A stretch of DNA of 64,000 nt from NCBI GenBank assembly GCA_903813345.2, contig CAIIXF020000002.1, forward strand, positions 21,342,455 to 21,406,454. The letters are read 5' to 3'. The first letter of the stretch is position 1. Each line of letters starts with the position of its first letter. The notes under the pieces were generated by a model, which did not search any database, was not told where the DNA came from, and saw only the letters and a program-made list of their open reading frames with translations. A program made the translations under genes and the position numbers. Below, piece by piece: positions 21,301 through 64,000 of this stretch. Origin of the DNA: Owenia fusiformis (taxonomy: Eukaryota > Annelida > Polychaeta > Sabellida > Oweniidae).

Positions 21301-24300
21301 GAAAACCATTATTTCCATTGTATCATTCATTTTGTATTATATTACTTTCATATAACAATCTTCATACATCGACAAGCTATGCAATAAGATGGGCTTTATA
21401 GAGATCCTATCAGCCTCAAAAACATAGCAAGAGCGTTCAAAGCAAAAGGTATTAAGAGCCATCGAAATATATGGTATATAAGGTTCCAAAAATGATCATA
21501 TACGATTTTGGAATTTTATACAGAAACAATTATTATTACGATACAAGGGATAAAGCTATGAGGGTCTTAAAACAGTAAATATATATTATATAAGACTTAT
21601 AACTGAACGATAAAGTTGCTTATTTTCATGAAATTTTATTTTGTGTATTTTCAGGAATCATATCGTATACAGAGTACCTGTTCCTGCTATGTGTACTTAC
21701 AAGTAAGTGGTTTGCTAAAATATGTTCTGTTTTGTTCTATACTATTTTGGATTTGCTACTCTGGGGAATTTTTCTAGGTCTTAATTTATATGTTCCAAAA
21801 AATATGTACTTTAAAGAGACCTATTACAATTTAACTTTAATCTAAGTGGAACACCTTTTGTACATCTAGAAATTGTTCTACTTGCAAGGTGTTCTACTTA
21901 AAGGTGTTCATTTAACATAAATTCAGTTGGTCTTGGGACCCTGGGAAGTATTCCACTAACAGAGGTGTTCTACTTCTAGAAGTGTTCCAGTGTATTACTG
22001 TATTATAAAAAGGAGTAGCAAGTCTTATTGCCATTGGAAAAGTATGGAAAGCAACACAAATTGTCATAACTCATTTAACTTATTTCCTTTACTTTTTCAA
22101 AACATCTCATTAACCTTTATGTTAAATCTAAAAATAATATCACATTGCACAATAAGAATAGAGAGTTGTCCAACTGGTGGATATCAACTCTGATTTGTGC
22201 ATAATGTACTCTAATATTGGGCATAGTATACTGTACATCCCGTTGGCATAGGTATCAAATCTTTCTAGTTGAAGTCATTTTTATATTTTGATGCTAGCAA
22301 AATATATTTTTATGCGATCTTTATCTTAATCCGTTCGCACCCAGATTTGGGTAAATATCAAGGATATTACCCCGCTTGTAACTAAAGTGGAAAAATATTA
22401 TGGTTATATAAAATTTCATGGTGGCCTATTTGTGTTCCAAACTAGAAAAATATACTTTTTGTGTATATGCTCTTGGAAGTGTTTGTATCTAACCCCAACT
22501 GAAGTTCAAGAATTTAAGCAATTTGAATTCTTGAGAAATAATTTAAATGAAATGATGTCAAGTAGTGTTTGAATATGAACCTATCAAATATAAAGTTATC
22601 ATAATACTCCAACATGGCCACCTACAAAGGCATACAATTTTATAATTTTGTAGTGGGAACAGGGAAATTCAGTGTTTTATCGCGATCCGGATGTGGATTT
22701 ATTTGATGTGAATTTTTGATACAGCTACTCTTAAATCTCTATTTTAACTTTGAAATTAGTTGCAATATTTTGGTTATACAAATGCTATATATAATAAATT
22801 CTTCTTGGTTTCTCTGGTATTTATTTACTTGTTTATTTACTTCATTTGGATTTGGAAAGCCTTTCTTATACCACCATGACAATTGGTGACATATTGTTAT
22901 AGTCTCCAACATTTTGACAGTGTTTGGTGGTTGGTGTTCAGTGGTTGGTATATGGTGGTCAGTGTCTGTAACAAATGGCAGGTGGTAACATTTTGCACCT
23001 TGCTATTTTGTTATTTTATTCCTTGGAAATTACATTCAAATTCTCACTATTTTGTATCTTATCTATATCAGTTTGTTTAGAGCCAAAATATCTGTCTCAA
23101 ACATAGCATTAACAATTCAAATTGACAGACCAGAAACAATGGGACCAGATTAAATGGTGCGAATATGAACTCGCTTATATCATTTTCTATAGTAAAGTAT
23201 AATATTTAACCAAAAGATATTTAGATTACATCAATGATTGATTTGCTGAAATTATATACTTATATGATTAATTTATTTATTTAATTAAATGTATGAAATT
23301 GTTAATACTGTGAGAAACCAGTCTATGGGTTGTCAGGAAAAAGTAATGTTTAAGGTGCCTCGGGAATCCGTCAATATACTGATTTTGGATTTTTAAAAAT
23401 CATACTAATAGTTATATTAGTGGGAGGGGGTCAGAGGTCACTCGTTTGGGGTAAATTTTTATTTCGCAAAAAATTTCAGGAATTTGAAAAGAAGGAAGTA
23501 ATAAAAGAATTTCTCTGGGCATATAATAAGAAAAATACCACTGTGATTTTCTCAGGATATATTAATCGATCATATCCGTTTTGAGGGGTAGACCCTCTAG
23601 CAAATACATATTTTATTTTGTTTCACATCATAAATTGATAGAATTATAATGTACTCTTACATAGTTAAGGTCATCAAGTTCTCATTGTTTTATGAGAAAA
23701 ATATATAACTTGAAAAATGTTAATCCAGTTTTGTTAATCTAGTGTTTGTGACTCAGTTATTACTTAATTAAAAACACAAAAAGTGAAAATCATTTAATAT
23801 GCTTTTATAGAAAAAATAATTGTATGGACATCTGCCTGTACGGATAAACTATATTTCTAGCAATATTAATGCATTCTACTTTTTAGCTTTTATTTGTCAG
23901 TTGCAATATATTTATGTAATCTGACCAAACTTCACAGATTTGGATTTTGTTTGGCCAAATTATTGCGGTCCTAGTCCCTTAGTCAGCTTTCAAACTGTGG
24001 TAGTCTGATTAGCATAATGGAGCAATCAACTGTACCCAGTTGTTAATTCAAAAATTGTCTTGTGCCCAATTGAAAATCTTCAAATGATTGAAAAATTAGG
24101 CTTCTTTGACAAGTTTTTGACATTTTTGAGGAGTTGATTTTTCATATTGGTTTCCCATGGTGATCTGTATTATACTATTATTGATAATTTTCTACCTTTT
24201 TGACAGGTGAAAATCCTATAATTTTTTTGTTACATGTATATTTGGATCACCTACCGTACCAATATGTATTTTTACAAACAAGATCACAGTTAGAGCTTTT

Positions 24301-27300
24301 TGGCCCCTAGATTGTGTGGTCATCTAATGCATATGATACATCACTTATTTACACAGGGGGTGCCCTCCCATAGTTCCTCAGGTCACATGATTCATATCAG
24401 TGCATTACCTGGATAACCAGAGTAGTAGGCAAAGTATTATGGGAATGCTTTATCCTTGCTTGGATTCGATCATATAAATTGGCAGTTTTCAGAAGCCTGT
24501 TGTTTTATAAGTTTCAGGTATTATATGAGATAAAGGCCTAAGTACCAGTTGTCAAAAGTGATCGGTCCCTCAACTTCATGTTATTGTACTATTATCCGAG
24601 CTGTTTAAAGATCAATTTGTTTGCTTGTATGTTTTGTTGTTTGTTTGTTTGTTTATTTGTTTGATAGGTGTCATAATTAGCTTTATTATACCTTTAGTTT
24701 CACGCAGAAATCCTTGGAATTATTCAAAATGTTACTCCCATAAAATAACCAATGTTATAAGAGTTTATGAATCTATCTGAATCTATTGCGCATCTTTTTA
24801 CCTGGATCATTGTGAATATGTCTTGTTTTTTATTAATGTTTATTATGGATTATATCACATTTCAAGTCATGTGTTTTGCCTTGAATCCTGGGAAATTCCT
24901 TCAGTAGTTTTGTATCTCAATGAAAAAAGTAATTTCCCAGATTCCCTATTTATTACCTACTTTAAAATGCACGTTCATCATTGGTCATAATTGTCATGTG
25001 CATTATTGGTAAAGTACCTCCTTTGTCCAGTTTATACAAGAGCCATCTGGAGGAAAATTTCAAAACTACAAAGAGACACTTGAGAATGACAAGAAAATTG
25101 CTGTGTATACTTTACAAAATGTCTGTTGATGTATACAAAATATGTATTCTTTTTCCGCTCAATTAGAAATGATTTCATGGATGATGGTCCGATTCACAAT
25201 TCAAAAAATGTTGTACTGAAAATGTAACCTACGATTAAATTTATATCACTCCGACCTACTAGCGTGGTTTCTAAAGAAAGATTTGAAAGCCTGTAATCGA
25301 ATTGGTAAAAACACAAAAGTGAAGATGGTATGCCCATATGAAAATTTTAAATGGTCCTCGTTAGTTTTTCACGAAGGATATGCTGAAAGTGAAATTACAA
25401 AAATGAAGAATAAACTAGTATTTAGTGCTCACCTCGAATTATATATTAATACAGTTTTTTGAAATATATTTAATACTTGGAGAGATTTCAAGTGAAATCC
25501 CGAGAATTTTGAATCAGTGATTATTATGTGGAAGGTCGGACTTGACGCCTGCCCAAATTTTCTGTTCGAATACAAACAAAGGAATTTGTAAGTGAACTGG
25601 GCTAGTGACAAAAATGCCCAATTTGCAATGTTCACTGTATTGATGCATTATAAATGCACAAAGTGCATCAAAAGTCAAAACACATTCCATGTTAATTAAG
25701 TTTGCGATATGAGGAACAGATAGAGCAATTGATTGGTTAAGTAGAAATATGATATGCCAAAATGTGCATAATTCGGAATATTCAAAGATGAGAATTATAT
25801 TTTGCCAAAATATTTAGAAGTAGAATCATAAAAAATAATTGGGGAACTTACTACATTAATGTTATGCAAACGTAAGATGATCAGAATATTCTTATTTAAT
25901 TATAATATAATTTAAATATGTTTAATATGATGTATATGTAATGAAATATACAAACAAATAGACATACAACCCCCCCCCCCCCCCCCTAAGAGGTCCTATT
26001 ACTCCCTTACTTTGGCCTTTTCCAACAAATTCATTTATTTCTTTAAATTGGTACATCTACTAAATTCAATCTTTTTGCATTAAGAAAAACAAAAATTATA
26101 TTTGTAGAGCCTCACTCTGGGTTCAGGATAGCGTTCAACATGTTCGATACAGACGGCAATGAGAAAGTCGACAAAAAAGAATTCATGGTGGTAAGTATGA
26201 TTTCCAGATATAGATGGCATACTTGTATAGTACATGAATTCAATCAATTCAAATTTTGGGTTTGAACCGGCATGAAATTTCACGAAGATTGTGTTATATA
26301 AAATAGAATTTGAATTTGGAATAATAAAATAGATGGGCTATGTTATGGAAATTAAAATGATTCTCTTGTGTCAAGAATCAAGAAAATTTCAAAATTTGAA
26401 TTGAAAGGACATGTTCTGTTCTCAATTTCTGTAAATGCAAGAATGCCCAAAAATAAATCTATTGAAAGCTTAAATCTTTGGAAACTGCAATTTCTGGGAT
26501 ATGAATCTGCCATTTTGACCAAGATCCGATGGAAAAGTTTGAACAGAATGGCAGAGTATCATACCATAGTTCTTATAGAGTTCAAAAATTAGAAGACATT
26601 TGAAAGTAGCAAGCAGTTTAGAAAATCTATTTTTATTACTTTAAGAAGTCTGTTTTAGTTTTTAGAAAATTTTGATCACATTCTTAAGCTTATTAGATTT
26701 CAGGTTTAATATTGTATCATGTATATATGTCAATGTTGATGTTTGGTTTGTAAAATTAAACATATTCATGTTGTCATCGTGCAAATGAACTCTTAATTGT
26801 CACATATCATGTCACATTACTAACATTGTGTAGAATAAATGTGAACTAATGCAATATTTTAAAAAATTAATGGGATTAATTTAAATTGATTTTATTAATA
26901 GCTTACACAGGTGATGAACCACGTGCGTACATCTGAACTAGACAAGAAACGATCGAAAACACCCAGAAAATACTTCTTTACTCCTATCGTGAGTTGGATA
27001 ACGATTTTACCGGTGCATGAGGTTCATGTTCGCTGTTTATTCATATATTATATTGTTCATATTTTACAGTTGTTTATTATTATTTCTTTGAAAAGTTATA
27101 TGTTGTACTTTATATATAAATGTATATAAGCTGCCACTTTACTTTATGTCGCTTACACTATTACACTTATAAAAGACACGATTTCTTACATTTTAACACA
27201 TTGTCTATATGACATTACTTCATCACACTTTCTTACATATTTTCACTATTTTATACCATATATATTTGTTAATTAGTTTCTAATTTTTTTATTTGAAACA

Positions 27301-39300: not shown

Positions 39301-42300
39301 TAGACCAACATATTGTAATGCCAGCAACACAAAATATTGTATAATGCAGACATATTGTAGTCCCGGGATTGTAGTGCCATTATATTGTAATACCAAAATG
39401 TTATAAAGCTATATTATATTATAATGTAATAACAAAATATGATATAATGCAAACATATTGTTATACCTAAAATACAATATAATGCCATATATTGCATATT
39501 ATAGTGCCATTATACTGTAAGACTAAAATGTAATATATTCCATGATATTGTTATACCAACATTTTATATCATGCAAACATATTACAATGCTATTATTTTA
39601 TTTATTTTTTTTTTATTTCCATATAATACCAATTACAAATAAACTAACCAGAATTAGCAACAGCAAAAACAATATTACATTTTCCTTATCATCAGTTCAT
39701 AATCAAATAAAAATTCTAGATTTGGATGGTTCCCTTTCTTAAATTTACTAATTACATTGTGTGCAATACTTATTACAACATTTACTTCTTGGTCTCTAGT
39801 ACCTAACATCTTTTCTGATATACTAAGGTTAATTTTTTTGTTTAATTTTTTAAGACAGTATGTTTCCACCATCACCCAAACTTGCTTTATATATGTACAA
39901 TCCACAAAAAAAGTGTTTATAGGTGTCTTTTATATTACATTTTTCACAGTTGTTTGATTCTTTCTTTTTCATTTTATAAAGTAATTCATTTGTTGGATAT
40001 ATTTTATAGAGTATCTTATAAAAAAGTGACCTTAGCCTAGGCTCTTTTAAACTTTTAACTGTTTTAAAAGCCAACTTCATGTCTACCTGGCATTCATTTC
40101 TCCATTTTTCAGGAATATTTGGAATCTCTATTTCATTTTGAATAATTATGCCTTTAAAGTCTTTTAATTTTGCTGTTGCTATTACAATATTATTATACAT
40201 GTGTTCATTATTATTATGCACAATGGTTTTGTTGTCCAATAAAGATTTTATTAAATTATATTGCATTCTAAGATCTGGTCTTGGACCAATGACATTTACT
40301 ATTTCATCAAAATTCTGATTATCCTTATCCTTATTAAGAATATGTTTGATTTTTTGAATTCCCATCTTAACCCATTCATTAAAAATATGCAATGCTATTA
40401 TATCATAATACCAGAATATAATATGTCATTATATTGTAGTATTGATATATAATGCAATTATAGCAAAGCCATTTTATTGTAATACCAAAATATTATATAG
40501 TGCCCCTATATTGTAGTGAATTATATTCAAATACCAAAGTATTAGATGTAATGCCAACAAATTGTAAATACCCTAGCTAAATATCTAGCTGTTGTAAGGA
40601 ACATAGATATTTCCCTTACCCTTCCCTGTATATTTTAAGATACTCCAATAGATTAGCCTCAGATATCATAATTGTGCATGTTTAAAATAATCTTTTTATG
40701 ATTGTATGATTAGCATACATAATTATAAACAAAATTATAAAATAATAGCATAGAAATAGAAGTGTAAGGTAATACTTAATACCATAGAGGGTGTAATATA
40801 CCTAATATATATATAAATCTATCGATTTTATCGAAATCAAAAATCATTTATGTGCTTGCTGATGGGTTCTATTTAAGCAACGCTTATTGAAACAAGTCTG
40901 GATTATTTTCCTTACGTAATTGTTTATTTAAATGATAGAAAACAATTTTCCCAGTCCAAGTATTCACAATGGCAATAAACACATTGAAAAAATACCTGAA
41001 GTGACTTCATGGACGATGAAAACCAAACATTTCTCTATAAAAATAGGTCTTTGATGTTATATATCAAACTTCAACGTTGATCACAAATGATCTAAAAATA
41101 CATTCTTTCCATTATTTAAACCATTCTGTTTTGTCTAATGCTAATTGCTGATATAATTCTCACTGACTTTTTGTTGAGACTGGTTAAGTTCCTGCGAATT
41201 TACTCGCCTATTCCGATTTTGGATTTGGGTTAATTGATAGCATTGGATTCTGGGTAACAAATGGTGCTTTTTGCATTATGGTGATGTCACAAATGTTGAT
41301 TTAGGTTTGATGTCTAGGTAACACTAACAAAATGGGTCAAGTTTTTCTGTTTTATATATCAGTACATTAGTTGAATTGCATATCAGAAAGATCAAAACTA
41401 TTTATTTGGTTTATAATTTCACCACCACAAGTGGTGAAATATTGTTAAAGTCTCTGTAGACAGTTCAGCGGTTAGTGTTCAGCAGTCGGCATCTGTAACA
41501 AATGGCATGTGGTGACATTTTGCATGTTAATACCTTGTATACTTCTAGTTTTCAGTTCAATTTGCAACTTCTGGTTAATCTTCTGTTTTTGATTAATTCT
41601 TACCAATTAAATTACTAATCATATACTTGAGTAGCATGACAGGCACCTACTTATTCAGGAATTAGACATATTCTCCTTACTTTTGCATGTTTGGCTATTA
41701 TTATTCTGGAATTTTACGAAATTATAATTGTCATTTTTCAATATTACGTAGGAACCAGACTTGTTTTGTAATTTCATTAATTTGGTTATGAAATTACTTT
41801 TTTCTGTATATAATACACTGTAAGAACTATTGTCTCTTTTAATTATTACTTCAATAGAAGCTTCTACCCACAAGTTAGTTTTGCACTTATTCACTTAGGG
41901 CCATCACAATGAGGTCAAATAGCTATAGACATGTTTTTGAAAGCTTATGACAGTTAAAGATTTCTTACTTTAGAATATAATTGTATGATATAAACTAACA
42001 ATTAGATATTACCATATTCAATCAATTGACAGAATTGATAGATTATTTTTTCAGCATATTAACTGATCTCAACATGGATACTTACTTTAAATTATACCGA
42101 AATGTTTGAATATTTATTTTTACTGATTATTACTTTTTATGAAAAAAGCTAGGCCAATTTATAGAATATTTTGGTTAGGTTTTGGGTTCTTATATCATAA
42201 CAAATTAACTTCAATATAAATGTTCCTATTTTTTATTTGCATTTACCAATTATTCATTTTTGATTGTTACTATCATTTTTATTAGCATGATTCCAAAAGT

Positions 42301-45300: not shown

Positions 45301-48300
45301 TTTTACCCATTTGATCAAATTATCCTAACATTTCATCTTTTTCGAAGAGTTCATACATATTTTCAATGTGGCACTCTTACACAGCCAATATAATTCGACG
45401 CCGTTTCGGCATCGAACAAATTTGGCACCGTTCCGGCACCGTTTCGACACCGTTCCGGCACCGAAACCTTTCGACACCAAAATTTGCTACCGGACTAGTC
45501 ATTCCATTTGGTGCCGAAACGGCACCGAAATTTGGCACCGAAACGGCGTCGAAAATCAGATTGCATTTTGGGAGTGTATAGGGTAGAGGTATATCAATAT
45601 TTTGACCCAAACTGGTATAATAGTTAATACTACATTAAAATTCAGCTATATATTGAAAAAAAATCCTGGGGAGATTACCATTTTCCATTTATAGAAATTA
45701 GTTTTTAATAAAATTCTCTATATTTTAGGGTGATGCTCAGAGTGCTGATCTGGTAGATACTACATTGTTGACCCATTTCTTTGGCCAAAAGGGAGACAAG
45801 AGTCTTTCATATGATAATTTTTACAGGTAAGTAATCCTCCTAATTGATACAACTATAGCTGAAAAATGATTATAAGCATTGAAGTTATTGAGGTCTGCTG
45901 CTGTTGATCATATATTATATTTTGTCAACTAATATTATGTTCTTAATGTAAGTTATAAAATCTTAGTAAAATAAAAAATACTGTTTTACATAGTGTCTCA
46001 CATTTTTCGTAGTCCAAAGTTTTAAAGCTCCAAGTTTAAATTTATTTTACAGGGTGACCCAAAAAATGCAACCCTCTAATTTTAAACTCAAATTATTGAG
46101 GAAGCATATCCATTGCCCATGATCTTTAACTTTGACAACATATATACCTTGTCTCACATTGTATTGTAATAAAAAACAGGGAGCAATAACTATAACTGTA
46201 TAAAGCGATTTGCCGCATAATTATGCACTATGTTACGTGATATTTCATGAAATAAACCTATTGTTAAAAAATTGAATTAAATTTTTAGGTTTATGGACAA
46301 TCTCCAGACAGAGGTGCTAGAATTGGAGTTCAGTGAGTTCTCCAAGGGAATGCCAAAGATATCTGAGGTAAGAGTTGCAAATGAAGTATTCAAAAGATTT
46401 AAAATCATAAAGAACTTTTTTTCGGCTGTATTACTATGGGCATCTTCTATGGCCAGGTGTTTATTCCCCGTAGTCTATAGCCTGTGTAACCATGGTTAAA
46501 TTAAAAAAACAGTTGAATGAAATGTCCAAACAATTCTACTATTTGGTAAACAACATATTTATCTATTCAGATATTTGATTACTTTTGACACATACATTTG
46601 AGCATGCTGGGTAAATTCTAAGGAAGCCATTTTGGATATTGTTCACCCTTGGCCTTGTTTAATATTGCAATTTGTGCCTTCTCTCCTTTAAGGTTGAATT
46701 TGCGAAGATTCTTCTTCGTTATACGAAAGTCAACAAAGAGGACTATGAAGAATACCTGGATAGACTGAAAAATAGAGTACAGCAAGAAGTGGTAGGTATT
46801 CTCAATTCTCCAGATGTTTTAACTTGCAAAATAGAGTGGAACAGCGAGAAATAAGTGAGGATTTAAGTTAACAGGCATGTAGTTAACTCTCTAAACTGTT
46901 TAGAAATGCAAGAAATTCTGACACTTCATTCAAATTTTGTGAGATATTATTGCAATAAGCATGAGTAGACTCTAAGTAAAACTGGAAACAATGCATATGA
47001 GCAGAGTATAAACTTTAAATATATTATGACGGTGAATTCACACGCAGAAATATCTCATTGCCGTACTGGAATATACAAAAAAGTATTTGAGACATGTCAT
47101 ATTATAGTGAAATTTTATATTTATTTAGCAGTTTTCATAGAATATAAAACATGAAACGTTTTCCTAATTTCTGTCCATACACATATACATGTACATGTAC
47201 ATCATGTTTTATATGATATGAAAATTAAATTGTAATATATTTCCCTTCACGTTCATGTTCTCACATATTTATATGTTACATCATTTTCAGGTGCACAAGG
47301 TAATATTAAGGACTTGAAAACAGGATTAACATCTCTATTGCTGGAATTTTGCTTTTATTTAGGGAAGATGGTTCTTACACATTGCATCATGCTGCTAACA
47401 TTTGAAATACATATACTGTCTGAGGACTCTGGGAAATTGATTGCAATATATATATAGCTCATGGGATTAATGTTTCCTATTGCACCTTATAATTTGATGG
47501 TCTACCTCTTGATTCGATGATCTTATATTGCACCTCTTAATTTGATGGACTTATATTGCACCTTATAATCTGATGGTCTACCTCTTAATTTGATGGTCTT
47601 ATATTGCACCTCTTAATTTGATGGACTTTTATTGCACCTTATAATTTGATGGTTCTGAATTTTAACATATGATTTCAAACTCTTATATTGGTTCTCATAA
47701 TCTGATGGTGCAAAGTTGCAACTTCCTAATTTGATGCTCATATATTGCAACTCATAAGTTGATGGTCTCGTATTGCATCTTATAATTCAATGGTCCTATA
47801 TTGCAACTCTTAGTGTCATGCTCTTGTATTACACCTTGTATTATTAAATTCCTACATTGCACCTCATAATTTAAAAAACGACGAGGTGCAAACATGAAAC
47901 TATTAGTTTCATGTTTGCACCTCATAGTTTTTTGATGGTCTAATATTGTACCCCATAATTTGATTGTCTAGTATTGCACCTCTTAATTCAATTGTCAAAT
48001 ATTGCTCCTCATAATTTGATGATTCTATATTCCAACTCATAACTCTCATTTTTATTTCCTTAAATATCTGCTATAATTAGAAAATAATACGTGCTCATAA
48101 ATAATTCTTAATCTTTACCCAACATATTAGTTATTAACATCACCATCTTTAATCATAGATTAATCATTTTATTAATCAAGTACAGTACAAGTGACTCTAA
48201 TCATATCATCATATTAGTTGAATTGAATAAATTGAAAAATATCAATGTATGTCTAAAAAACCAAGAAATCTATGATATCAAGAATTTCCTGTGTCGTCAA

Positions 48301-51300
48301 CTATTATTGGGAATTCTTTGAATTCCTATAATAAACTATCACGAAAACATATTGACTGTCCTTCCTCAATAAAATTTGAATTATTTGCTAGTATCTGATT
48401 TGCTGGCATTTCCTATACTTAGTGCGTCACAAGTTGCCTATTTCTTTGATTATTCCCTTCTGTAAATTGCATTTCAGAATATTCACCCACCTGTTATTTT
48501 ACCTGCGGGTAATTAACAAGATTTGATGGTCAATTTATTGTTCTATGCGTGGGGTTACAGTCGTTCACCTTAACATTTGTGATAAATCACTGATAATCAC
48601 TTATTACATTGGTCTATCTGATAATTTCCCAGTAATCACTCTTCTAGGTACTGTAACTTTATGATGACCTCAATCCTATTATGCCCCCTGGAGTTTCCTG
48701 TTGGTTTATCACCCCTTGTCTCCTTTAGACCTTTCTATACATAAGTTCCCCCCTCTTGCTCCACTGGACATTTCTGTCAATTGATCACCCTCCCGCCCCT
48801 TGGACCTTTCAATAACTTCACCCCCTCTTGCTCCACTGGACATTTCTGTCAATTGATCACCCTCCTGCTCCTTGGACCTTTCAACAACTTCACCCCCTCA
48901 TGCCCCACTGGAATTTCTGTCAGTTGATCACCCTCCTGCCCCTTGGACCTTTCAATAACTTCACCCTCTTTTGCTCCACTGGACTTTTGTGGTGAACTTC
49001 ATTTGCACCATTATTTTTGTCAGTCAGTCTTGCCCCTGAAATTCTCTGGAGGTCAGTATTTTCATTCTGCAGATTTTTTGTTGTTAACCCCTGGACTTAT
49101 TTTGGCCAATTTCTCATGCTCTTAGGCCTTTCCGGAATATTATCTCCTCCCCCATTTAGATTGAACCAATCACATTTGTATAACACCATTTCCTCCCCCT
49201 CCCTAAAACATGGAAAACTTCAAACGTTAAATGAATCATAATACATGATAAATCATGTAATAGAATTGTACTCAAAATTGCCCTCTCTATTTTTTTATCC
49301 TCGTTTGTCTCAATATAGTCCTGATTAATCATCTTAATTCTCAGAATCACTTGTTTTTGTGATGAATCGAGACGAAAGTAATAAATGAAGCAGACTTGAA
49401 TGACACCAGTTGCGTCATCTCAGACTCTGCGCACCAACATTTAAGTGAGAATATCCTGGAATTTGTCACCCGTCCCAAAGTCTCTTCCTTTCTTTTGTGA
49501 AGTACTGTCAAAAGAAGTGGTCCCTGTGAGAAGTAAATCGAACCAATGTAAAGTTAAGACCCTAAATTGTATGGAAAAATCAAAAATCAGACACTTCTTT
49601 CAAATTTTTTAAAGATTTTAGAAAAAATGTTGAAAGATGGGTGAAATTGTTTGCAGAAGTCAGTTCAAATATTCCATCAATTCAGAGACCAATACATCTC
49701 CATATATCTTCATCTGAGGAGATTTTCTTGATGTGTAGGTGGAAATACTCAAGCAAACAATCACACAAGAGTTTTCCCGTTTTCAAGAATTCTACACAAT
49801 TTGGTGAAATAACTGAATTTAAGACCTCCGTTAGATGCAAATTATCCTCCAAGACAGTTCATCAATTAATAAAATTTGATTATTCCACACTGCATCATTG
49901 TTTTATATAGAATAAAATATTAGCGTAATGACATTTTATGTTTCAATTGTGATTCATAATAGGAAACATCTTGACCGTGTTATAATCCATTATACCGTTA
50001 AGAACATGTCAAATAACTTCAAGTCTTTGAATCAGATTTATTGTGTGTTCTAGTTTTCACATTTCAAGATCTATAGTGGATTGAATCGTTTAATTTATTG
50101 CTAATGATGTCATCGTGTTTTTTATCTACAAAAAGTCGGTAGCTGTCATTGAGGTCATATCTTAGAATGTGAAATAAGGAAAAACTGGAAAATTAAGAAT
50201 AAATAAGAATTGATTAGATATTTTAAAAACAGTAAGTCGTATGTCTGTCTCTGACGTGAAAAGGAAAGATGTGCAAGAAATTGATATGGGTAGATAATTA
50301 ATTAATTGTATTAAGACAGCTTATAAATACGTGATCAGAAAATTGTGGTTCTCACGGATGCACACATGAATGACTTCTTGAATTTGAGAGGTAGTATTTG
50401 AATAGTAGAATTACATTCAACCTAACATCAACAGCCTTTTATCACTTTTGGTGGTGTCTTTGCAAGTTTTGCTGTCTATACAATGTAGTATAAATGGGTT
50501 ATGTTAAAAGTAAGCATTTCTATAGCTTTGCATTACAGCTGCCATCTAATTTAACTGGGAGAGCATATTGTTACATATTGATCCTTTCCATGAATGCTAA
50601 TCTAATTATTTTCAGTCTTATATCCACGTTTATCTACACCACTTGAAAATTCCACTTGTGGATGTGACATTTGTTATACTTTCCAATTTTTTTATGGACA
50701 GTGTTCGACATTTTGGCAAGTTTGGCCTTTGTAACAAATAGCAGGTGGTCTCATTTTGACATGTGAATGCCTTGTTAGTTATTAGTTAATTTAATGATGG
50801 TGAAATTCTAACGATCAGGTTGGCTCATGTGACGTAAATACAGCCTGTATTTCACACTGCCTTATACATATAGGTTATTTACTGGGAGGGATTGAATATG
50901 GGTTTTATTCCGAGGAACAATATGACATTGACCGATGTAAATACATCCTGTATTTCACACTGCCAAATACAAAATTGATATTACCCTCTACAATTGTATT
51001 TCAGAATACTTTTGAGAAACACTAGGCTTACTCTTTAACATTTATTTTACATTTATTTACAGATCATTTATGCCTCAGTCACATTTGATCAACGTCAATC
51101 ACATGGCGGCCGTAGGTTCTTAAATTGAAATAAATATGCAACATAAAATACAAGAATCAGCAGGAGGAGGGAGATTTTCCATATTGATTTTGTGAAACTA
51201 CAGCCGCCAAAGAGCAGACTTGATTGAGGCTTTAGATATTGAATAATACATGTGTACATGTTGTAATTTTTAATATGCCTATGTTTCATTTTTAGGGGAT

Positions 51301-54300
51301 TGAATTTAAAGTTTTCAAGCAGTTTTGCCAGTTTTTAAATAGTTTGGATGACTTCACTGTTGCAATGAGGATGTACTCATTTGCTGACCAACCAGTTTCC
51401 GAAGGTAATCTTCAAGAAATTGATTTCAGTCAAACATTTTCTCAACAAGTTGTACAGAAAAGAGAAAATACATGAAATTAAATTATTGATATTTTCTATT
51501 TTACTATTTTAATGTAATTATGGCATAATACATTTCAAGGTAAAATGTTTAATATTTCTTAGTTTTCCTATCGTCATAAACCGTTTGAAAATAATCATCC
51601 TTTAATTTTTTCAAATATTTAAAAAAAAAATTAGTCATATAATTCCCATTTTTCTTTCATCTCTTATCTGTTACATCCTGTGAGAAAATGTATGACTTAA
51701 AGAGGTAACTGCTATCTTGTTTAGGGGTTTAAACCCTCTTCTCTGGCTTAACAGTATCTATTTATGTCACCACTTGTTATAGCCACTGCTTTAGTGACTC
51801 TGATTCTGTACTGGTGTTCATTGGACAGCATCTGTAACATACTGTTACACTTTTGTAACCTTTTGGAATAACCTAGCAGGTGGTGACATTTTGTTATGTT
51901 GAACTGTTCTTGAAATAACCTTTATTCCAGGAATAATGATTAAAAAGTAACATGCCAAGCAAATTATTCTCTTTTCTTTAGATGTAGTTTTGAATCAAGT
52001 CTGCAGAAATATGATATACAAGTGGGTAGGGGTGGGTGGTCAGGCCTGTAGCCAGTTTTTGTCAAGGGGGATCACTTTTCAAAAAATTCTATGGTGAGAT
52101 TATATTTGATAACTTAGGGCCAAAATCACTTGAAAAGTGCTCAGAATGATGAAAAACTGCATGATTTTGAAAGAACATTTGGCCGAGGGGGGGGGGGGGG
52201 CTCACTTGCACCCCCTGAATCCCCCTGGCTACAGCCCTTGCAGTGAAGACTTGATTCTCTACTGTGTAACATGCTGGGAAACTGACTGCCAATACTTCAT
52301 TGGGATTGCCTATGCCTGTATCTCTCACTCTCTCTTCCACTATCTGAATTAATACTAACTAACTGAAAACTCTTTATATAGGGATTGGATTTCAAACACT
52401 GTTACATTTAATTGCATCCCTCCTTTCTTTAGCACTACCATAGCAGCTTTAAAGCCTCAATTTATAATACCCTATGGGTGGATACAGGAGCTGATGCATC
52501 TATCTCTCTCCCTCCCTCCTTTATCTTTACTATAGCCGCTTAAAATTCTACATTTATATCCTACTTATAGGGGGTGGACTTTCATGTGTTTCAACAGTTT
52601 GCTAAGTTTCTAAACAGCCTTGATGACTTTGCTGTTGCTATGCAACTCTATACATTTGCTAACCGACCGGTGTCTGAAGGTACCATCTTGACCGCACGTT
52701 GTAGATGTGACTCAATGTACTCACTACATGTATGCTTATTTCTGCTTACTCAATTTCTTGAAATCATCAGTTAGACCAATAAGAGAAAAAAATATCCCAG
52801 AATTCAGAGTTGAACCTATCCCCATGTTAAGATGAAGGTCTGGAAGTTCATGTTTAGTGATGTTCATCTTTGAATTTTGGGATACTTAGACCAATCTAGT
52901 AAATAATTTTACGAAATAATTTGTTATGATGTTATTCTTGCAGTTTCATGGCAGGAATAGTATACATAATTATATATTATGGCTAATTTTCAAAAGAGTT
53001 TTTTGAATTTTGTTTATAAACATTGTTGCTTGCAGAGTGTGACACCATAATCTAACCAATATACATTGTACATTGCACCCTAGAGACTGGCCCCTTATAA
53101 CCTTTACTGCCTATTAAGTTCTTTTCAAGTTTTCTTGATACAGTGTATTTATAAAAAATTGAGAAAATGGTCAAATCTCTGTCAAATTGGCCCAGTTTTT
53201 GCTTGCAGAGCACAGCAAGTGCAATTTACATCTATAAAAAATTCAAAGAACAGAAAAAGACAGTACTAGTCACATGTATGGAATCAGTGGGGAGTTACTG
53301 GAGATGCTTAGAGGTTATAGAAATAGGCAGTCAAGGGTTAACTGTGTGTTGTAATGTAATGTATCTTCCTTAGGATGTAGATTTCATTTTTTTAGTTAAA
53401 GTCTTTGATTCATTTACAAATCTGCAAATGCTTCTTGAATATTTCAATTATTTTAATTATTAAATGATACTGATTTTCACTGAACACAAGAGCTTATAAC
53501 CATATATTTTATATTACTGTTACACCTGATCTGAGTTCTTGATTGTTAGTTTGAAATCCTGGGTAATCCCTGATGATTCATATTAATTTATTCTTTGAAG
53601 AAAGTCCTAGTATTTAGAAATAAAAAATTCATAAATCTTAAGCATTTTTGTAATTTCCCTTTCATTCATAGAAATCCATCTTTATTTGCTTTCATTGTCA
53701 CGCTAAACATATTTACTTGTGAATTCTCTTATGAAAAAAATTATTTCAAACATTTTACTTATATCTAAAAAGTAAATCTGCTCCAAAGTAAATATCTAAT
53801 ATCTAAGCATGAATTTTCTCAAATTACCTGAATCCTATGTTTTCTTTTACAGAGGAGTTCCAGCGTGCGGTGAAGATCTGTACAGGGTTTTCATTGGACC
53901 CTGGTATTGTGCACACAGTCTTCCAGATCTTTGACACAGATGATGATGGCCACCTTAGTCACGATGAGTTCATCTCAATTATGAAGGACAGACTACATAG
54001 AGGCTTTAGAGTAAGTGGATCTCGATAAAGAAATATTCGTACATGTAGCTAAAGCAGAATGGGCGAAATTTGAGGTTTTATGAATATTTTGGGCTTTTGA
54101 CGTTTCTGAGCTATTGAATTATCCAGTTGTATTGTCTCTGGCTGTGTGTCAGTACTTTGTTGATTAAAGGCCTCGTGTCACAAATTAACATACCTTTATT
54201 ATTAGAAACAGTTATGTGGATAACCTTCATAATATAAAATACATGTGCTAAAACAAATGATCTTTCTGTGTCCTGGCTCTGCTGTAAAAATAAACTATTT

Positions 54301-63033: not shown

Positions 63034-64000
63034 ATGTCAGTGGAGATAGGAAACATTCCCCAGGGGCAGGGCTCTCAGGACACTAGTCCACCACCCCCTC
63101 CCCCTAGACCTGCAATACCCCCACCCCCCACACGCAGGGACTCATTAGACATCGCAAGACTACAAGCGAAAGCAGCCTTGTTTGATTCAGTGGCTGACTT
63201 ATCAAAAATCGACGACATTATGGAGGATTTTAACACAGACAATGGGGCGATTCATGAATTTGAAGCTAAGCAACTGCATAGAGATATGTTCAAATCATTA
63301 TATGGATTTTATAAATCGGCAGAATTATGTGATCTAAATCTAAAATGTGGATCGAAAGTGTTTCAATGCCATAAAGTGGTACTAGCTACAGTGAGTCAGT
63401 ATTTCCGTGTAATGTTCACATCAGAAATGGCGGAGAGGAACAAAGAGGAAGTAACCATACAAGACATTGATGAAATCGCAATGGAACAAATCATAGAGTT
63501 TGCCTATACAGCAAAAATAAATCTCACCACTGAAAATGTTCAAAAACTTTTATATGCATCATCGATTTTACAAGTTGAAATCGTTGCCAAGGCCAGTTGC
63601 CATTTCATGGTCACACATCTGCATCCGTCAAACTGTATCGGAATACGGGCATTCGCGGAGCAACATGGACGTACAGAACTCATGAAAAGTGCTGATATGT
63701 ATATCTTAGATAATCTTATCGGTGTATTTGAAAGTGAAGAATTTAAAATAATGACAGCTAAACATTTAGAAGAGACGATTAGTTGTCCAGATGCTAATGT
63801 CCCATCAGAAGAAACAATTTATGAGGGTGTCATGAAATGGGTTAAATTTGACGTTGAGAAAAATAAACAATTCTTGCCGAGGCTTATATCGAAAGTGAGG
63901 CTCCCTGTTTTATCAGCCAGTTATCTCATGCATAATGTTGCGAAAGAGGATTTAATTCGAAAGGATTTAGAATGTAGAGATTACCTTGATGAAGCCAAGT
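63034..64000 (+). CDS. KLHL8: KLHL8-like BTB-BACK(-Kelch) protein, 3' part outside window
   Basis: An open frame of 322 codons runs uninterrupted to the window edge. An in-frame TGA at 63010-63012 lies upstream with no plausible acceptor in between, so ATG 63034 is the start. Residues about 19-33 are a proline-rich stretch (two runs of prolines). A BTB/POZ domain spans about 88-195 (FYKSAELCDLNLKCGSKVF, CHKVVLATVSQYFRVMF). A BACK domain follows to about 300 (HPSNCIGIRAFAEQHGR, VRLP, CRDYLDEA). The HPSNC-RAFAE and VAKE--CRD-LDEA motifs match KLHL8 better than other Kelch family members. Family knowledge: KLHL8 is a substrate adaptor for CUL3 ubiquitin ligase and carries six Kelch repeats, expected beyond 64000. 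The proline-rich N-terminus differs from the vertebrate form I know. Confidence 0.85.
   Translation, partial: MSVEIGNIPQGQGSQDTSPPPPPPRPAIPPPPTRRDSLDIARLQAKAALFDSVADLSKIDDIMEDFNTDNGAIHEFEAKQLHRDMFKSLYGFYKSAELCDLNLKCGSKVFQCHKVVLATVSQYFRVMFTSEMAERNKEEVTIQDIDEIAMEQIIEFAYTAKINLTTENVQKLLYASSILQVEIVAKASCHFMVTHLHPSNCIGIRAFAEQHGRTELMKSADMYILDNLIGVFESEEFKIMTAKHLEETISCPDANVPSEETIYEGVMKWVKFDVEKNKQFLPRLISKVRLPVLSASYLMHNVAKEDLIRKDLECRDYLDEAK

Follow-up and report, generated by a model that had tools for sequence, protein, structure and literature searches.

Homologous tandem exons that are used in a mutually exclusive manner are rare and mostly ancient, and they fine-tune protein function (PMC9741552; PMC3228551). 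In zebrafish, micu3b was one of six significant mutually exclusive exon (MXE) events found by rMATS in a comparison of male and female olfactory epithelium (PMC7349279). Here we analyzed a window of 64,000 nucleotides (nt) of Owenia fusiformis DNA, which contains part of a MICU3-like gene with two similar neighboring exons, A and B. These exons are best explained by tandem duplication of an ancestral 109-nt exon, which probably (we put the probability at about 0.83) gave a two-exon mutually exclusive cluster, two isoforms, and a fine-tuned pairing with MICU1. Coordinates are positions in the window unless another label (C2, C9, or L002) is given.

The contacts between MICU proteins have been described for human MICU1 and MICU2. 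In the MICU1-MICU2 structure, interface 1 joins MICU2 EF-hand 3 to MICU1 EF-hand 1, with the salt bridges Arg221-Asp330 and Asp231-Arg352 and with hydrophobic contacts that include Met229 and Met337 (PMC7055370). Particularly extensive contacts are made by Met229 and Phe383 of MICU1 and by Met183 and Met337 of MICU2, and the interface residues are conserved in MICU3 (PMC7434445). The interface between EF-hand 1 and EF-hand 3 is rearranged by Ca2+ (PMC7442490), and EF-hand 3 is non-canonical in both human MICU1 and human MICU2 (PMC7055370).

The exon pair and its reading frame

Exon A (51296-51404, + strand; GIEFKVFKQFCQFLNSLDDFTVAMRMYSFADQPVSE) and exon B (52571-52679, + strand; GVDFHVFQQFAKFLNSLDDFAVAMQLYTFANRPVSE) are adjacent homologous exons of 109 nt each, and both run from phase 0 to phase 1. 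Both are preceded by AG, followed by GT, and free of stops. The acceptor is tttttag in A and acttatag in B, and the donors, with the exon boundary marked by a slash, are AAG/GTAATC and AAG/GTACCA, neither of which has a G at +5. A and B are identical at 24 of their 36 residues and at 76 of their 109 bases. The BLOSUM62 score of the A-B protein comparison was 137, against a maximum of 19 among 2000 shuffles, so that the similarity is far beyond chance. Upstream of the pair lies an exon of 99 nt (46693-46791, +), which was matched by a human MICU3 probe, ends in phase 0, and has the donor GTG/GTAGGT. The exon downstream of the pair, exon C (53853-54010, +), encodes EF-hand 4 (DTDDDGHLSHDE) and the arginine equivalent to MICU2 Arg352. 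Its end was fixed at 54010 by the donor AGA/GTAAGT, which refines the preliminary description of this locus.

The reading frame was followed by joining the upstream exon, A and/or B, and exon C in a script. The combination with A was open, and so was the combination with B. When both A and B were included, a TAA stop was found at the 12th codon, counting from the A/B junction codon, and when neither was included, a TGA stop was found at the 7th codon of exon C. Single inclusion alone thus preserves the frame. The frame logic of the preliminary description was reproduced by this joining, and its coordinates, the two lengths of 109 nt, the AG/GT sites, the phases, the 24 of 36 shared residues, and the absence of lesions were all recovered from the sequence.

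A stop that stands ahead of a further exon junction is generally expected to lead to decay of the transcript. Counted by hand, the TAA in B stands 74 nt and the TGA in C stands 137 nt before the next junction. Because the GTAAGT donor after exon C leaves both stops before a junction, decay of A+B transcripts and of skipped transcripts is expected. In the proposed mechanism, each stable mRNA would use either A or B, transcripts with double inclusion or skipping would be removed by nonsense-mediated decay (NMD) owing to their early stops, and the frame itself would enforce exclusivity.

Apparent constraint on both copies and ancestry of the exon

We compared A and B codon by codon. The numbers of identical bases at codon positions 1, 2, and 3 were 24, 33, and 18 of 36, and the 24 changed codons comprised 12 synonymous and 12 residue-replacing changes. 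Nei-Gojobori counts gave a proportion of synonymous differences (pS) of 0.78, which is saturated and beyond correction, and a proportion of replacement differences (pN) of 0.19. One unconstrained copy was then simulated with intron base composition, 4000 times per setting, and copies were scored that at once lacked a stop, matched at 24 or more residues and at 33 or more second codon positions, and had intact splice dinucleotides. All of these were retained in 25-28% of simulated copies at 0.1 changes per site, in 2% at 0.2, and in 0.05-0.1% at 0.3, and by none at 0.5, 0.75, or 1.0 (0 of 4000 per setting). With synonymous sites saturated and pN low, and with no unconstrained copy passing from 0.5 changes per site upward, both exons appear, on this pairwise A-B evidence, to be under protein-level purifying constraint. 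Human MICU3 was identical to A at 17 of 36 residues and to B at 16 of 36; the two exons are about equally distant from it, and therefore neither looks decayed.

The 60-nt flanks of A and B showed identities at only 19/60 and 13/60 positions, and with so few identities in the flanks the duplication is judged to be old. The duplication probably postdates the separation from the human lineage, because A and B are closer to each other (24/36) than either is to human MICU3, an estimate that rests on 36 residues and that gene conversion could mimic. Beyond A and B themselves, the genome searches listed no close copy; they gave weak matches only, and their heuristics may miss some. When a third copy was sought by local alignment of A and B, either alone or together with their flanks, to three introns, nothing exceeded the 100 block-shuffled controls run for each. 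A candidate near 52380 (tatag GGATTGGATTTC) was rejected, as it was equalled by 29 of 500 shuffles for B and 51 of 500 for A.

Searches with pieces of the MICU3-like gene, human MICU3, and human MICU2 gave two clear MICU loci in the genome, the MICU3-like gene and a MICU1-like gene on contig C9. Weak matches elsewhere, such as C9:6691034 (E 0.0014), look like general EF-hand proteins or chance but may include a third MICU gene, and the MICU3-like gene is the only clear MICU2/3-type gene found. The MICU1-like gene region examined (C9 546.5-566.4 kb, 19.9 kb) contains a homologous exon, CAG/GGAATA ... CAAG/GTATGA, which is also 109 nt long, runs from phase 0 to phase 1, and occurs as a single copy within the 19.9 kb searched. 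Because the MICU1-like gene has the same exon once, the exon would be ancestral and the duplication confined to the MICU3-like gene. The 109-nt exon and its non-triplet length thus appear to predate the MICU1/MICU3 split. Also in this region, a stretch on the minus strand (L002 2583-2837) resembles by eye a reverse transcriptase fragment of a long interspersed nuclear element (LINE). Elsewhere, the genome gave three matches above the cut-off of PF16915 (Eryth_link_C, the annelid haemoglobin linker family), one of them interrupted by a stop, which points to an annelid; 14 control genomes of unspecified kind gave no such match.

Place of the segment in the protein and extent of the gene

Residues of the A/B segment were numbered by alignment, segment position n corresponding to MICU2 residue 311+n and MICU1 residue 357+n. 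Position 19 is then MICU2 Asp330 and MICU1 Asp376, and position 26 is MICU2 Met337 and MICU1 Phe383, with letters that match the published ones. Because the equivalents of MICU2 Asp330 and Met337 fall within it, we infer that the segment is part of the non-canonical EF-hand 3, and not, as first proposed, of a region between the central EF-hands and the last EF-hand. The salt-bridge aspartate equivalent to Asp330 is present in both A and B. At the equivalent of Met337, A has Met and B has Leu, the residue in B agreeing in kind only. The genome's MICU1-like gene retains the equivalents of Arg221, Met229, Asp231, and Glu242. Differences between A and B that involve charge are Arg25/Gln, Asp31/Asn, and Gln32/Arg.

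The MICU3-like identity first assigned to the gene was borne out by structure matches. The best PDB match of A joined to C was human MICU3 (6agi, E 3.3e-30), followed by MICU2 and then MICU1. With the upstream exon, B, and C joined, 6agi was again the best match (E 5.2e-35), compared with 3e-26 for the best MICU2 and 6.6e-15 for the best MICU1 structure. Canonical EF-hand loops were read by eye in EF-hand 1 (DTDGNEKVDKKE) and EF-hand 4, both outside the A/B pair, and EF-hand 4 also matched Pfam EF-hand_1 over the cut-off.

Further exons, all on the plus strand, were sought by tblastn with the human MICU3 probe. An exon at 21655-21702 (IISYTEYLFLLCVLT) matched at 13 of 16 residues (E 0.003) and has the acceptor cag and the donor CAA/gtaagt. 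The exon with EF-hand 1 (26108-26190, donor gtaagt) matched at 73% over 37 aa, a few of these residues being intronic (E 3e-12). Two more exons, with boundaries taken from the sequence, lie at 45729-45826 (GDAQSADLVDTTLLTHFFGQKGDKSLSYDNFYR; E 8e-6) and 46289-46367 (FMDNLQTEVLELEFSEFSKGMPKISE; E 1e-7). The exons for the N terminus precede the window, at C2:21312062 and further upstream. Because the 5' exon at C2:21312062 sits 30 kb ahead of the window, the gene spans at least 84 kb. The exon model is partial with respect to the linker exons, the first exons, and the last exon. A 180-aa open frame on the minus strand (39853-40392) gave a weak, below-cut-off zf-RVT match (E 0.004) and is perhaps a retrotransposon remnant in a large intron. 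At 63355-63471 (+), a BTB/POZ domain piece (Pfam PF00651, E 1e-9) probably belongs to the next gene downstream.

The intron between A and B is 1166 nt long, and the nearest AG stands 35 nt upstream of the B acceptor. It contains a dispersed repeat (approximately 52040-52240), which was found at itself and 39 other scored places with 75-85% identity, 40 of 3407 candidates having been scored. Because an intron of this length contains a dispersed repeat, a size-limited exclusion mechanism is unlikely. The only TGCATG (52158) falls within the repeat. In the A-B intron, the motif CTCTCT is found three times ahead of B (52328, 52330, and 52504, the first two overlapping), and it was absent from the last 500 nt before A and from the B-C intron; these are raw counts and are not taken as a signal. 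The intron before exon A carries an imperfect minisatellite with 28-nt spacing (47476-48059), within which lies a palindrome (47873-47933) with 30-nt arms that are 93% complementary. A tandem repeat of 71-72 nt in the same intron (48770-48991) has three copies that are 86-92% identical to the reference copy.

Competing explanations and comparison with known systems

The donors of A and B can be read in two ways. At position +5, where A has T and B has C, all 10 other donors read (seven in the MICU3-like gene and three in MICU1) have G. Weaker donors are common at regulated exons, which speaks for a regulated pair, but those of A and B also fit inefficient use. Other observations weigh against a mutually exclusive cluster with altered MICU1 pairing. 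In the two pairs scored out of three, no signal of competing RNA structures was found, as the best duplexes fell within the range of 15 shuffles both across A (-54.4; shuffle mean -52.2, lowest -56.2) and across B (-53.7; mean -50.5, lowest -63.5). When residues 18-33 were placed on an ideal helix, the six A/B differences in this second helix (21, 25, 26, 28, 31, and 32) had a mean direction that diverged by about 154 degrees from the mean direction of the contact residues, so that most of the changes would lie off the known interface. The differences were not significantly clustered on a helix face (P = 0.107 for the second helix and 0.329 for the first), and a number of changes, Met to Leu among them, are conservative. 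The link to dimerisation that had been suggested for this segment is strengthened by the equivalents of Asp330 and Met337 that lie in it, but most second-helix differences point away from the known contacts. Dimerisation need not be strongly affected, and the sober reading is that the differences may act by fine tuning or on another surface.

The missing G at +5 in both donors, together with a B donor score that was the lowest among the donors scored (with an approximate matrix, the donors of exon C and of the exon at 21655 excluded), would also suit a locus in which only one exon is spliced into mRNA and the other is a duplicate that is dead or hardly used. We consider this improbable, since neither exon has a stop, frame, or splice-dinucleotide lesion, both are about equally distant from human MICU3, synonymous sites are saturated with little replacement change, and unconstrained copies failed in the simulation at 0.5 or more changes per site. 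It is just as improbable that mostly one exon is productive and that regulated double inclusion or skipping yields NMD targets that set the protein level. The non-triplet exon length, the early stops in both wrong combinations, and the GTAAGT donor that places both stops upstream of a further junction would agree with such a switch. However, the 109-nt length is ancestral, being found in MICU1 too, and hence was not selected for switching, and the protein-level constraint on both copies suggests that both are translated. For an assembly artefact or merged haplotypes we found no supporting point; 33 of 109 bases differ between the copies, their flanks are unlike, and no second locus was listed in the genome search, so that this explanation is scarcely credible.

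If A and B form a mutually exclusive pair, a reading to which the zebrafish MICU3 gene with its mutually exclusive event lends support (PMC7349279), both isoforms would retain the two Ca2+ loops as well as the aspartate whose MICU2 counterpart pairs with MICU1 Arg221. They would differ in charge at positions 25, 31, and 32 and would carry Met (A) or Leu (B) at the hydrophobic contact position. Such differences would fine-tune rather than abolish the pairing with MICU1, and with it the Ca2+ threshold of the uniporter gate. Should both forms be made, one gene would give two uniporter gatekeepers that differ only at a dimer-contact segment, and these would be a natural variant pair in which to study how the Ca2+ threshold depends on MICU pairing, as well as a case of exon duplication substituting for gene duplication. 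More speculatively, and rather doubtfully, exon choice in an animal with a single MICU2/3-type gene might serve in place of the two vertebrate genes MICU2 and MICU3, with tissue-specific use of A and B, pairing with MICU1 through differently tuned EF-hand 3 interfaces, and different Ca2+ thresholds for mitochondrial uptake.

The kind of arrangement, mutually exclusive homologous exons, is well known, and a MICU3 precedent exists in which the exon position is unspecified. The preliminary description knew of no report of such exons in MICU genes. This stands for a described homologous pair, as a literature search, with most subscription papers outside its scope, found none at EF-hand 3 of MICU genes, but it does not stand for mutually exclusive events as such, since zebrafish micu3b is listed as one (PMC7349279). 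No MICU gene appears among mutually exclusive exons in the main text of a human landscape study (PMC5740500), of a study of human tandem exons (PMC9741552), or of two further studies on such exons. The zebrafish case likewise concerns a MICU3 gene; its exons are unnamed in the table row, and rMATS does not require that they be homologous (PMC7349279). Drosophila MICU3 (CG4662), in an animal without MICU2, likewise has more than one coding isoform, A and C, which may differ elsewhere than in the exon described here (PMC6506686).

MICU1.1 is likewise an alternatively spliced MICU isoform and shifts the Ca2+ response of the uniporter, but it arises by inclusion of a four-residue micro-exon in MICU1 and involves no choice between homologous exons (PMC5840707, PMC8909990). 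In ACTN1 and ACTN4, substitution of tandem duplicated exons likewise affects EF-hand motifs; however, one version alone keeps Ca2+ binding there (PMC9741552), whereas EF-hand 3 of MICU is already non-canonical in human (PMC7055370). Exons 4a and 4b of OGDH are likewise anciently duplicated and mutually exclusive, and they determine how a mitochondrial protein responds to Ca2+ (PMC7969005). The OGDH exon itself carries a Ca2+-binding motif, whereas the canonical Ca2+ loops of the MICU3-like gene lie outside the pair, and OGDH exclusivity depends on distant branch points within a size-restricted intron (PMC7969005), in contrast to the 1166-nt, repeat-containing A-B intron with its nearest AG 35 nt ahead of the B acceptor. 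Like homologous tandem exons in general, A and B lie side by side and agree in length, and their phases and splice sites are compatible (PMC9741552; PMC3228551).

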